Source: Microbacterium sp. Marseille-Q6648
Lineage (GTDB): Bacteria; Actinomycetota; Actinomycetes; Actinomycetales; Microbacteriaceae
NCBI RefSeq assembly: GCF_943181415.1
Contig: NZ_CALPBZ010000002.1
Span: 62,001-126,000, forward strand
Direction of reading: 5' to 3'
Length of the DNA: 64,000 nt
Position numbers and translations under genes: made by a program. Below, in pieces: positions 60,275 to 63,479 of the stretch. The stretch's first letter is position 1. The number at the start of each line of letters is the position of its first letter. The notes under the pieces were generated by a model. That model saw only the letters and a list, made by a program, of their open reading frames with translations, searched no databases and was not told where the DNA came from.

Positions 60275-60862
60275 TCAGCGCAGCGCGCCGACGCTGGCCA
60301 GCGCGAGCCGCACGAGCGTTCCGCGACCGCCCTCCATCTCGGAGGCAAGCGCGTCCGAGGACGCCTCCTCGGGCGACAGCCAGGTGACCTCGAGCGCGTC
60401 CTGTCGCGGTTCGCACGTGCCGGTGACCGGCACGACGAACGCCAGCGAGACCGCGTGCTGCCGGTCGTCGTGGAACGCGCTGACACCGGGGATGGGGAAG
60501 TACTCGGCGACGGTGAACGGCACCGGCTGCGGCGGCAGCATCGGGAACGCCATGGGACCGAGGTCGTTCTCGAGGTGGCGGAAGAGGGCGTCGCGCACCG
60601 TCTCGCCGTAGCGGATGCGACCCGACACGATGGTCCGGGTGATCTCGCCGACGGGGGTGGCCCGCAGCAGGATCCCGACCTGCGTCACCTGCCCCATGCC
60701 GTCGGTTCGCACCGGGATGCCTTCGACGTAGAGCATCGGCATCCGTCGGCGGGCCTCGGCGAGTTCGATGTCGCTCAGCCATGCCGGGTTGGACACGTTG
60801 CCCGGCGGCGGGCCGAAGGGCTCGTCGCCGGCGGGCTCGGGATCAGGGGTGCGCACCGACAT
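60275..60862 (-). CDS. NUDIX hydrolase family protein (DUF4916-like)
   Basis: 195 residues from ATG 60862. The region PMLYVEGIPVRTDGMGQVTQ and VGILLRATPVGEITRTIVSG leads to YGETVRDALFRHLENDLG. This sits where the Nudix box should be but lacks the full REUXEE pattern, which is typical of the DUF4916 subgroup and makes classical Nudix activity doubtful. AGAGG is adjacent to the ATG and TATACA lies six bases upstream. It sits 26 bases before the peptidase gene start, on the same strand. Confidence 0.78.
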   Translation of the reverse strand: MSVRTPDPEPAGDEPFGPPPGNVSNPAWLSDIELAEARRRMPMLYVEGIPVRTDGMGQVTQVGILLRATPVGEITRTIVSGRIRYGETVRDALFRHLENDLGPMAFPMLPPQPVPFTVAEYFPIPGVSAFHDDRQHAVSLAFVVPVTGTCEPRQDALEVTWLSPEEASSDALASEMEGGRGTLVRLALASVGALR

Positions 60863-60925
60863 GCCTCTTGTATACCCCCTCGGGGTCGGGATGCCGCGTC
60901 GTACCCCGGTGGCAGGATGGCAGGC

Positions 60926-61609
60926 ATGTCGGAACCGCTCTCCCTCGACACGGCAGCCGTGCTGTGGTCGCACGAACCCGCCGACCGTCCCGGGCGCCAC
61001 CTCCTGGTGCTCCTCCACGGCTACGGGGCGGACGAACACGACCTGTTCGGCCTCCGTCCCCACCTTCCCGACGATGTCGTCGTCGCCGCCCCGGCGGCCC
61101 CGCTCGCTCCGCCGTGGCCGTCTCCCGGACGGTCCTGGTATCCGATCGAGGGGCTCGACGGCCGCGACCCGGCACGCGTCACGGCGGCGGCCCACGCTCT
61201 GGTGGACTGGATCGACGCACAGGCGGCGGATGCGGCATCCGTCGGTCTGCTGGGATTCTCGCAGGGCGCCGCGGTGGCCCTGCAGGCTCTGCGACTCGCG
61301 CCCGCCCGCTTCGCCTATGCGGTGAACCTCAGCGGGTACGTCGCGCCCGGGCCGTTGCCGGGCGACGCCGAGCTCGCCGAGCGACGGCCGGCGGTGTTCT
61401 GGGGTCGGGGATCGCGCGACGACGTCATCCCCGCGGCCATGATCGCCCACTCGGTGGAGTGGCTTCCGGCCCACGCCGACCTGTCAGGACGCGTGTACGA
61501 GGGCCTCACGCACAGCGTGTCGGAGCAGGAGCTCGCCGACGTGCGGACCTTCCTCGACAAGCAGCTCGCCGCGGTGAGCGCCTCGACATCCCCGCCCGAC
61601 CCGCGCTAG
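60926..61609 (+). CDS. Alpha/beta hydrolase, phospholipase/carboxylesterase family
   Basis: 227 residues. Nucleophile serine in GFSQGAA, oxyanion region LVLLHGYGADEHDLFGLRPH, aspartate in WGRGSRDDVI and histidine in YEGLTHSV complete the triad. It acts on carboxylic esters or short lysophospholipids in the cytoplasm. CAGGAT (60913-60918) lies seven bases before the ATG and no strong ribosome site is present. The end of the gene holds the promoter of the ABC-F gene. Confidence 0.9.
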   Translation: MSEPLSLDTAAVLWSHEPADRPGRHLLVLLHGYGADEHDLFGLRPHLPDDVVVAAPAAPLAPPWPSPGRSWYPIEGLDGRDPARVTAAAHALVDWIDAQAADAASVGLLGFSQGAAVALQALRLAPARFAYAVNLSGYVAPGPLPGDAELAERRPAVFWGRGSRDDVIPAAMIAHSVEWLPAHADLSGRVYEGLTHSVSEQELADVRTFLDKQLAAVSASTSPPDPR

Positions 61610-61612
61610 AGT
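61583..61612 (+). promoter_or_regulatory. Promoter of the ABC-F leader
   Basis: TCGACA (61583-61588), an 18-base spacer and TAGAGT (61607-61612) each match the housekeeping consensus at 5 of 6 and 4-5 of 6 positions. The -10 overlaps the stop codon of the hydrolase. Transcription would start near 61619, about 26 bases before the leader ORF. The A/T-rich block expected for WhiB7 control is absent. Confidence 0.65.
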
Positions 61613-61644
61613 GTCTCGTCCTGTCCCCGACGTGAGGAAAGAAC

Positions 61645-61674
61645 GTGACAGAGATCGTCGCGACCGCGCTGTGA
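61645..61674 (+). CDS. Nine-residue leader peptide of the ABC-F gene (MTEIVATAL)
   Basis: A GTG at 61645 is preceded by AGGA six bases upstream and runs for nine codons, reading MTEIVATAL, to TGA at 61672-61674. It lies in an otherwise non-coding 244-base leader of an ABC-F gene, between a good promoter and a terminator-like structure. That is the layout of ribosome-stalling attenuators that induce antibiotic-resistance ABC-F genes. The peptide itself is too short for homology; the claim rests on position, ribosome site and downstream structure. Confidence 0.6.
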   Translation: MTEIVATAL

Positions 61675-61683
61675 CCACGCGCT

Positions 61684-61750
61684 GATCCGTCGATCCTTCG
61701 ACGTGCCGGCGCCCCGTTCCTGCGCTGACCGTCGATCCGGCCGCTCTTTT
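61684..61750 (+). promoter_or_regulatory. Putative attenuator with alternative hairpins and U-tract
   Basis: CGTCGA (61689-61694) can pair with TCGACG (61698-61703) in a tight hairpin close after the leader ORF. The same TCGACG can instead pair with a second copy of CGTCGA in CCGTCGATCC (61730-61739). GCCGG (61705-61709) can pair with CCGGC (61738-61742), directly before CGCTCTTTT, one of the few T-runs in the window. Mutually exclusive pairing plus a T-run fits a terminator/antiterminator pair. Inferred by eye, not folded. Confidence 0.5.
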
Positions 61751-61853
61751 CGAGCCCCCTCCACGTCCTCCGGGTTCTCCGGCACGCGTGCATGCGGGAA
61801 CCTCGTGCAGGCCGCCCCCGACACGTCAGCGCCCGCTGACCCCGGAGGCACTC

Positions 61854-63479
61854 ATGCCCGCACCCCTCGCTTCATCCCCCACGGTCGTCCTCGACCGGCT
61901 CTCGTACCGCTGGCCCGACGGCTCCCCCGCTCTCGACGACGTGTCGGGCGCCATCGGATCGGGCCGCACCGGCCTCGTCGGCCGGAACGGCTCGGGAAAG
62001 TCCACCCTGCTGCGCCTCATCGCCGGCGACCTCACCCCGACCTCGGGGCACGTCGCACACACCGGCGAGGTCGCCTGGCTGCCGCAGCAGGTGACGCTGG
62101 ACGTCGATCGCACCGTCGCCGATCTGCTCGGCGTCGGTACGGCCCTGCGCGCGCTCCGGCGCATCGAAGCCGGCGACCCCGACCCGCACAACTTCGACGA
62201 GGTCGGCACCGACTGGGACGTCCAGGCACGCGCCGAGGCAGCATTGGCCGACGCCGGCCTCGCCCCCGACATGCTCGACCGCCGCGCGGGAGAGCTCTCG
62301 GGCGGCGAGGTCGTCCTCGCCGCGATCACCGGGATCCGCTTGCGCGGGGCGCCCATCACCCTGCTGGACGAACCGACCAACAACCTCGATCGAGACGCGC
62401 GGACCCGGCTGTACGACCTCGTCACCCGCTGGCGCGGGGCCCTCGTCGTCGTCAGCCACGACGTCGCGCTGCTCGACCTGATGGACGAGACCGCCGAGCT
62501 CTACGGCGGCGGGCTGTCGGTGTTCGGCGGTCCGTACTCGCCGTGGCGCGCCTGGCTCGAAACCGAGCAGGATGCCGCACGGCAGGCCGAGCGCGCGGCG
62601 GCGCAGGTGGTGCGTCGCGAGAAGCGCGAACGCATCGAGGCCGAGACCAAGCTCGCCCGCCGGGCCGCGTACGGCCGGAAGGCGCAGCTCGACAAGCGCG
62701 TCCCGCCGATCGTCGCCGGCGGTCTCAAGCGCGCGGCCGAGGTGTCGGCGGGCAGGATGCGCACCGAGAAGAGTCAGCGCGAGGCGTCGGCGCGGTCTGT
62801 CCTGGATGCCGCGGAGCGCCGTGTCCGTGAGGACGACGCCGTGCGGATCGACCTGCCCGACCCCGGCGTCCCCGCCGCGCGGCGGCTGGCGACGCTGACG
62901 GACGGCGAGCGCACACACCTCGTGCAGGGCCCGGAGCGGGTCGCCCTGGTGGGCCCGAACGGGGTCGGCAAGACGACACTGCTCGAGCACCTCGTCGGAG
63001 CGGGGCGGGCCGGCGAGACGGCATCCGTTGCGCACCGCGCCACGGCCCACACCGACCGCATCGGCTATCTTCCGCAGCGGATCGACGGGCTGGATGACGA
63101 GTCGTCCGTCCTCGAGATCGTGCGAGCCGCCGCACCGGGCGTCGGCGATGTGGCGCTGCGCAACCGCCTCGCCCGCTTCCTCATCCGCGGCGCGGCGGTG
63201 GAGCGGCCGGTGGCCACGTTGTCCGGGGGTGAGCGGTTCCGTGTGGCGCTGGCCCGGCTGCTGCTCTCCGACCCTCCGCCGCAGCTGCTGGTGCTCGACG
63301 AGCCGACCAACAATCTGGACCTCGACACGGTGGATCAGCTGGTCGCAGCACTGTCGGCCTATCGGGGTGCCGTGGTGGTGGTCAGCCATGACGATGTGTT
63401 CCTCTCGCGGATCGGCGTCGACCGGATGCTGCACCTGCAGCCCGACGGAACGCTGACCGCGGCCATCCTGACCACCTGA
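61854..63479 (+). CDS. ABC-F family ribosome-associated ATPase (possible antibiotic resistance type)
   Basis: 541 residues from ATG 61854, with GGAGG six bases upstream. Two ABC domains in one chain without membrane segments: first Walker [10 protein letters not shown] (43-51) with LSGGE and [10 protein letters not shown], second GPNGVGKTT with [15 protein letters not shown] and [10 protein letters not shown]. Between them lies a basic, helical linker (about 250-340), the part that reaches into the ribosomal exit site in resistance ABC-F proteins. Members either displace antibiotics from the peptidyl-transferase region or act in translation. The inducible-looking leader favours a role in resistance to macrolide, lincosamide, streptogramin or pleuromutilin drugs, but the linker alone cannot decide the subgroup. 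Confidence 0.9.

Follow-up and report, generated by a model that had tools for sequence, protein, structure and literature searches.

Short upstream open reading frames (uORFs) have been described before several ABC-F genes. In Streptomyces coelicolor, are5sc (SCO6720) has a uORF that reads MLV from a TTG codon and is reported to be controlled, as it seems, transcriptionally; tiaA (SCO0636) has the uORF MVGDDDISG and is apparently controlled translationally. Both leaders are reported to show start-codon arrest with lincosamides, streptogramin A and pleuromutilin, and not with erythromycin (PMC12421871). The uORFs of the Firmicutes genes cplR, vmlR, vmlR2 and lsaA are given as MR[I/M], MIN, MK[L/Q] and MAGN, and cplR is reported to combine a terminator with occlusion of the Shine-Dalgarno (SD) site (PMC10201436). 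Here we describe the leader of an ABC-F gene in a 64,000-nucleotide stretch of Microbacterium sp. Marseille-Q6648 (contig NZ_CALPBZ010000002.1, positions 62,001 to 126,000 of the forward strand), referred to as the window; all coordinates below count from its first letter. Our analysis found a conserved leader ORF, a conserved promoter and conserved RNA helices that exclude one another, and we consider it fairly likely that this leader acts as a ribosome-mediated attenuator, its target being an ABC-F gene from the ARE5-like group of actinobacteria.

In the mechanism that we propose, the promoter would yield a 5' leader carrying the short ORF, which we infer to be translated. Without drug, an arm within the ORF (L) would pair with an arm further downstream (R), and a third arm (AR) would pair with a stretch beside the ABC-F SD site, keeping the switch OFF. 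If a ribosome stalled within the first codons, it would cover L; R could then pair with AR, and the hairpin on the SD side would be disrupted, giving the ON state. The leader is real and widely conserved, the attenuator is probably drug-responsive, and the conservation of its leader ORF and exclusive helices agrees with the layout that an earlier interpretation of this DNA (the sequence-only reading) had compared to drug-sensing attenuators; the idea of the peptide as the sensed thing fares less well, as discussed below.

Comparison with described leaders

The window leader resembles that of are5sc in its ABC-F target, its short uORF with a TTG-type start and its alternative RNA folds, and differs in having nine codons rather than three and in that no terminator was found, whereas are5sc is reported to be transcriptionally controlled (PMC12421871). 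The published are5sc leader, TTG CTC GTC TGA (MLV), occurs in 11 of 19 chosen Streptomyces-type loci (PMC12421871 for the leader), and in Streptomyces loci with MLV leaders the 5' end, read by eye, is similar (TCCTGT) and the gene is preceded by a GGTGTC stretch. The sequence TCCTGTTGCCG, which resembles the TCCTGTCCCC of the window's 5' end, also occurs in Streptomyces loci. The window leader appears to work like the short ABC-F leaders already studied and is probably related to are5scL1. The tiaA leader is likewise a nine-codon uORF before an ABC-F gene, with reported start-codon arrest and apparently translational control (PMC12421871), but its peptide is unrelated, and the ABC-F genes with DDISG leaders form a clade of their own among the loci analysed, where leaders ending in DISG were found in Micromonospora, Amycolatopsis, Mycolicibacterium and others. 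In a quick tree of 125 rows, the window clade held 97, a Streptomyces-type clade with MLV and similar leaders 14 and the DDISG-leader clade 12; SCO6720, SCO0636 and LmrC were not among the rows. The Firmicutes leaders share with those of Microbacterium very short uORFs before ABC-F genes and differ in host and in the poly-U terminator of cplR (PMC10201436); class B of the Microbacterium leaders (below) has only two codons. Finally, lmrC of Streptomyces lincolnensis is an ARE5 ABC-F gene reported to be under ribosome-mediated attenuation, and differs from the window in its mapped terminator, the formation of which is reported to need uORF2 (PMC8546547). By eye, short leaders MKL, MIF and MRI were also seen before ABC-F genes of Glycomyces (L052), Amycolatopsis (L030) and Streptomyces (L032 and L041).

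The term 'microbacter' is absent from the main text of PMC12421871 (supplements outside the check), and no paper joining ABC-F, leader peptide and Microbacterium was found in open-licence PMC text. A search of positions 60800-62200 against Rfam returned no family, the sole match (E 4.1, far under the gathering score) being to a snoRNA by chance.

The locus and its conservation in Microbacterium

The ABC-F gene starts with ATG at 61854 and the stop codon of the preceding ORF, TAG, lies at 61607-61609, which leaves the 244-base gap that the sequence-only reading had described. Its consensus-like promoter also stood: one match (TCGACA at 61583-61588, 18 nt, TAGAGT at 61607-61612) was found against a mean of 0.0 in 50 shuffles, with the -10 box overlapping the stop codon of the upstream ORF. 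A TANNNT box that begins 38-43 nt 5' of the leader's first codon is present in all 140 orthologues, as opposed to 5 of 556 control windows farther upstream. We place transcription start, by inference, close to the conserved 5' end listed in Table 1. The nine-codon ORF with its ribosome site was borne out as well; it reads GTG ACA GAG ATC GTC GCG ACC GCG CTG TGA (MTEIVATAL) and lies 179 bases before the ABC-F gene.

To place this leader among its orthologues, 198 genomes of the genus were searched for the ABC-F protein (E up to 1e-120), giving matches in 168 genomes, two of which had two. The locus sample comprised 149 of 150 listed places, with G091, whose match begins at residue 79, left out and about 20 further matches lying outside the sample; 142 of the 149 were anchored by tblastn, and seven (L180, L181, L183, L189, L193, L219, L234) had no anchor in the retrieved piece. 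The leader was present in 140 of the 142 anchored loci, which bears out the conservation that the sequence-only reading had proposed to look for, and under the same criteria it was found on none of the 142 reverse strands and in 3 of 2840 dinucleotide shuffles. The leader is missing from L159, which has a misplaced start, and from L195, which resembles a paralogue.

The 140 leaders fall into two classes. Class A (86 leaders, the window among them) has an SD site and an ORF of 5-13 codons, nine codons long in 41 of the 86, which starts with TTG in 40, GTG in 38 and ATG in 8, the search having admitted these three only; L190 was excluded from the class A alignment. Class B (54 loci) reads GGAAGT-C/T-C-N-TTG ATC TGA, a two-codon ORF Met-Ile with a stop at codon 3. 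A fixed string containing TTGATCTGA served to define this class, so that the lack of variation at those letters is to some extent built in; just two loci, however, lie outside both classes. Two other accounts of class B were considered and rejected: a GTG frame reading 'MSGSPLI', which has a stop at its codon 2 in L166, L223 and L233, and an origin by one-base deletion, since arm L stands at +11 in both classes, a spacing that shows a stop at codon 3 instead.

The two classes are connected by a covariance model for which class B leaders alone (49 of them) were used. This model found the class A leader of the window at 61619-61707 (E 6.3e-6, the single match in its genome); with E up to 0.001, 120 of the 198 genomes had one match each. 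Of these, 106 sit 56-211 nt upstream of the listed ABC-F match on the same strand. The remaining 14 comprise 12 with an ABC-F gene by tblastn, one at a contig end, where the contig stops 17 codons into what reads as an ABC-F gene, and one false match (G112, E 2.3e-4), so that 118 of 120 are linked to ABC-F genes, or 119 counting the contig-end case.

In the protein tree, which contains 20 of the 54 class B genes, all of these form one clade (SH-aLRT 99) together with L238, a class B gene of another genus, and a wider clade (99) of class A genes from Microbacterium encloses this one; many deep forks of the tree are open. Outside the genus, 28 loci of the same family (L238-L265) were inspected by eye: 18 have a longer ORF, which in most of them ends in Arg-stop, one (L238) belongs to class B, and in the rest no leader of this type was seen. 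Because the class B clade lies inside class A and longer ORFs occur in other genera, the two-codon leader is most simply a derived state.

Mutually exclusive helices

The arms form a switch in which L pairs with R, R with AR, and AR with a segment next to the ABC-F SD site. Four elements recur across the leaders: L, R (the last copy of GCGCTGAC-CGTCG/CGACG), AR (GTGTCAGCGC) and the SD-side partner; long class A leaders carry an extra hairpin, R1:AR1, inserted between L and R. Counted from the start codon, the first occurrence of the L core, CG[ACT]CG, is at +11 in 119 of 140 leaders (class A 67 of 86, class B 52 of 54). The sequence-only reading had built two exclusive hairpins from a repeated CGTCGA/TCGACG set. 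Exclusive helices with partner-specific pairing were indeed found, but the pairing that matters most involves L, R2, AR2 and the arm beside the SD, and the repeats of the window (CCGTCGATCC twice, in R1 and R2, and TTCGACG at 61698-61704) make up only the R1, AR1 and R2 part.

Pairing was examined by partner swaps between leaders, element by element, since RNAalifold on MAFFT alignments of whole leaders was blurred by length differences. R and AR were located by likeness to their consensus and not by pairing, 17 of the 140 leaders were excluded because they matched R or AR weakly, and duplicates were removed from the remaining 123; swaps within classes control only partly for kinship. The duplex energy of R:AR was -19.24 for native partners and -17.74 for swapped ones (n = 87 distinct), with 0 of 1000 shuffles as good, and within classes 0 (long A), 1 (short A) and 0 (B) of 1000. 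For AR:downstream the values were -15.01 native and -12.49 swapped (n = 111), with 0 of 1000 in every set. L:R swaps across all classes gave 0 of 1000 (n = 82). As swapping worsens the energies of both R:AR and AR:downstream, both pairings are maintained and AR is held to two exclusive partners. Folding of 61619-61860 gave -98 kcal/mol (z -1.81), with 9 of 200 shuffles equally good; we weigh conservation as strong evidence for the leader and folding energy alone as weak.

Effect of ribosome position on folding

To follow the helices under translation, leaders were folded with 31 nt masked around the P-site codon, and base-pair values were summed per helix; 52 of 54 class B, 25 of 27 short class A and 46 of 59 long class A sequences were counted. 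The helices are exclusive and tied to ribosome position, cleanly in class B and partially, in about half of the leaders, in class A. In class B, the sums for L:R, R:AR and AR:downstream were 11.2, 0.2 and 5.7 in the free leader, 0.8, 10.3 and 0.7 with the P site at codon 3, and 0.0-0.2, 0.0 and 5.4 at codons 12-13. More than three R:AR pairs formed in 1 of the 52 free class B leaders, in 51 with the ribosome at codon 3, in 46-52 over codons 3-7, and then in 32 at codon 8, 8 at codon 9 and 0 at codon 11. By the same measure, short class A leaders (n = 25) gave 0 when free, 13, 16 and 16 at codons 3, 4 and 5 (12-16 over codons 3-7), 3 at codon 9 and 0 at codon 11, and long class A leaders (n = 46) gave 0 when free, 19, 24 and 22 at codons 3, 4 and 5 (18-24 over codons 3-6), 7 at codon 7 and 0 at codon 11. 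In the folding model, then, R:AR appears to be favoured by a ribosome early on the ORF, best at codons 3-6 and more weakly when it sits on the start codon itself; a ribosome stalled late in the ORF would mostly give no R:AR. The sequence-only reading had suggested such folding with and without a ribosome over the leader ORF. In the window itself, the sums for L:R, R:AR and AR:downstream were 9.4, 0.2 and 6.2 in the free leader, 3.3, 3.3 and 5.4 at the start codon, and 0.1, 5.5 and 5.0 at codon 3.

Several results speak against an attenuator of this design. R:AR forms in fewer leaders at the start codon, the expected arrest site (10/46 long A, 9/25 short A, 39/52 B, each with more than three pairs), and AR:downstream stays, by the same measure, at codon 4 in 23 of 46 long and 13 of 25 short class A leaders, so that about half of class A is predicted not to switch fully. 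With the ribosome at codon 15, 9 of 46 long class A leaders again form R:AR. The window has this helix at codons 9 (7.7) and 14 (9.8) too, and so behaves less cleanly than its family as a whole. L:R swaps were not significant inside the classes (161, 121 and 398 of 1000). Predicted accessibility of the ABC-F SD site did not clearly rise, with means of 0.17-0.19 in the free leader and 0.14-0.24 with a ribosome at codons 1-5, and a local fold from R to the gene likewise gave no clear rise; as pairing between the SD and the AR flank drops, other pairings take over, and in class A pairing with the gene start grows. Lastly, the ABC-F protein scores 304.2 bits against the NCBIfam model NF000355 (ribo_prot_ABC_F), which describes ribosome-protection ABC-F proteins and has a curated cut-off of 380.

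Translational or transcriptional output

We think that the output of the attenuator would be mainly translational, through release of the SD site, and that it may be or include early transcription termination. In the folding model, pairing of the SD with the AR flank fell from 0.46-0.49 in the free leader to 0.25 with a ribosome at codon 4 in class A, and from 0.14 to 0.02 in class B, although other pairings took its place. The same sensor and arms could instead act on transcription, the AR:downstream hairpin or a Rho-dependent site stopping RNA polymerase and R:AR serving as antiterminator. This would be in keeping with the transcriptional control reported for are5sc (PMC12421871) and lmrC (PMC8546547) and with the lack of a clearly predicted SD opening. 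However, no intrinsic-terminator-like site was found in 61400-62000 (0 found, 0.1 expected; U-less or Rho termination not tested), the AR:downstream hairpin adjoins the SD, and tiaA is reported to be apparently translationally controlled (PMC12421871). The T-run that the sequence-only reading had counted as part of the attenuator does exist but recurs in few leaders (Table 1), and its role in a terminator is not supported. All told, we regard a transcriptional output as unlikely, though it is the most serious of the alternatives.

Role of the leader peptide

Codons 4-6 and 8 of the leader ORF fall on arm L, and in class B the letters of arm L are kept behind the stop codon, where they read S/I/V/F-V-A-S-A in 41 of 54 leaders. 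Because of these two observations, the peptide as the sensed thing is unsupported, and its letters look like mostly an RNA constraint. The simplest reading is that the ORF would bring the ribosome to the right place, the peptide itself going unread.

Ala-Thr/Ser-Ala is an example of an arrest context for phenicols or oxazolidinones. A drug-bound ribosome might accordingly be arrested at a specific site of MTEIVATAL, in such a context or in the manner of macrolide leaders, since among 85 class A leaders codon 6 is Ala in 71, codon 8 is Ala in 74 and codon 7 is Thr or Ser in 54, and in the folding model a ribosome at codons 3-6 favours R:AR more than one on the start codon does. We nevertheless find sensing of the peptide improbable: beyond the overlap with arm L and the class B letters, codon 7 and ORF length vary, and arrest near the end of the ORF mostly leaves the model without R:AR. 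Macrolide leaders of the ErmCL/MsrDL type also combine a leader ORF with exclusive helices and depend on the peptide in the tunnel; such dependence is not indicated for the window leader.

In class B, another frame, CTG-x-Arg-Arg-Leu-Arg..., overlaps the two-codon ORF and might be the working one, as a macrolide-type Arg-X-Arg arrest leader. It contains R-X-R in 48 of the 54 leaders and runs to an in-frame stop within 20 codons in 52. Its letters CGTCGCCTCCGCG are also held by arm L, however, it would start with CTG, and the other six leaders have no R-X-R; we think this account very improbable, and it bears on class B only and not on the window. We give practically no credence to an amino-acid attenuator that senses charged tRNA instead of a drug. 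A leader ORF with exclusive helices is the layout of such attenuators too, and the locus fits it to that extent, but the window's ORF has no run of one codon, the class B ORF is only Met-Ile and the target is an ABC-F gene.

By analogy, the inducers of the attenuator are likelier to be a lincosamide, streptogramin A or a pleuromutilin than a macrolide read through the peptide, because of the resemblance to the are5sc and tiaA leaders (PMC12421871). Macrolides, which the sequence-only reading had named among the inducers, are not supported: erythromycin is reported not to arrest ribosomes on those two leaders, and MTEIVATAL has no Arg/Lys-X-Arg/Lys motif. An attenuator of this kind could be a position-reading drug sensor, with the ORF as only a parking place, arrest on the first codons turning the switch ON and later, macrolide-like arrest not doing so. 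We put this idea forward tentatively, as plausible but somewhat short of an even chance.

Features of the locus and related observations

The coordinates of the leader elements and the gene are collected in Table 1. The ABC-F protein has sequence matches in PDB to PoxtA, EttA and other ABC-F proteins, and it likely belongs to ARE5.

Table 1. Elements of the ABC-F leader and gene in the window
Feature	Position	Strand	Basis or remark
Promoter TCGACA, 18 nt, TAGAGT	61583..61612	+	Motif search; TANNNT box in 140/140 orthologues
Conserved 5' end of inferred transcript, TCCTGTCCCC	61619..61628	+	Class A and class B alignments
Leader Shine-Dalgarno site GAGGAAAG	61634..61641	+	Sequence; class A majority form is GTGAGGAA
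Leader ORF, GTG start, MTEIVATAL, TGA	61645..61674	+	Translation; leader found in 140/142 loci
Arm L within the ORF: CGTCG at +11 to +15 from start codon, and CCGCGC	61656..61669	+	Conservation, L:R pairing
Arm R1, extra copy in long leaders, CGCGCTGATCCGTCGATCC	61678..61696	+	Folding, leader comparison
Arm AR1, pairs with R1 as inserted hairpin	61698..61712	+	Folding, leader comparison
Arm R (R2), TGCGCTGACCGTCGATCC, partner L or AR2	61721..61738	+	Consensus, folding, partner swaps
T-run TTTT	61747..61750	+	Not conserved (TTTT in 8/140 leaders), probably irrelevant
CCTCCGG, predicted to pair with CCGGAGG over the ABC-F SD	61767..61773	+	Minimum-energy fold, window alone
Arm AR2, GTCAGCGC, partner R2 or 61835-61840	61825..61832	+	Folding, consensus, partner swaps
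GCTGAC, AR2 partner next to the ABC-F SD	61835..61840	+	Folding, partner swaps
ABC-F Shine-Dalgarno site GGAGG	61844..61848	+	Sequence
ABC-F ATPase gene, 541 aa	61854..63479	+	NCBIfam and PDB matches

Some further observations concern the orthologous loci. In the class B loci inspected (L145, L147, L231 and others), a box CGACACGCCCGGG, sometimes repeated, overlaps the -35 region or lies 5' of it and is a possible regulator site. The TCCTGTC of the class B 5' end (for example in L120) is complementary to a GACAGGA over the ABC-F SD where GACAGGAG is present, which may be chance, the 5' end being conserved elsewhere too. At the ABC-F places of G038, G312 and G389, the match lies in a longer open frame than usual (942, 812 and 771 aa), and in G100 and G322 it contains one in-frame stop each. 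A separate Microbacteriaceae ABC-F clade has other leaders: MEIEVDRN (L018), MEIEVDRL (L253) and MELIEVDIRA (L016).

Implications

The attenuator would explain how an intrinsic ABC-F gene can stay silent until needed, and it extends drug-responsive ABC-F attenuators, reported from Streptomyces and Firmicutes in the literature cited above, to Microbacterium. The occurrence of long and two-codon ORFs before related switches amounts to a natural experiment that can separate sensing of the peptide from sensing of the ribosome's position. If the leader is indeed a position sensor, the Met-Ile-stop ORF of one clade, with the letters of the arm kept behind its stop codon, would be natural proof that no peptide is read.

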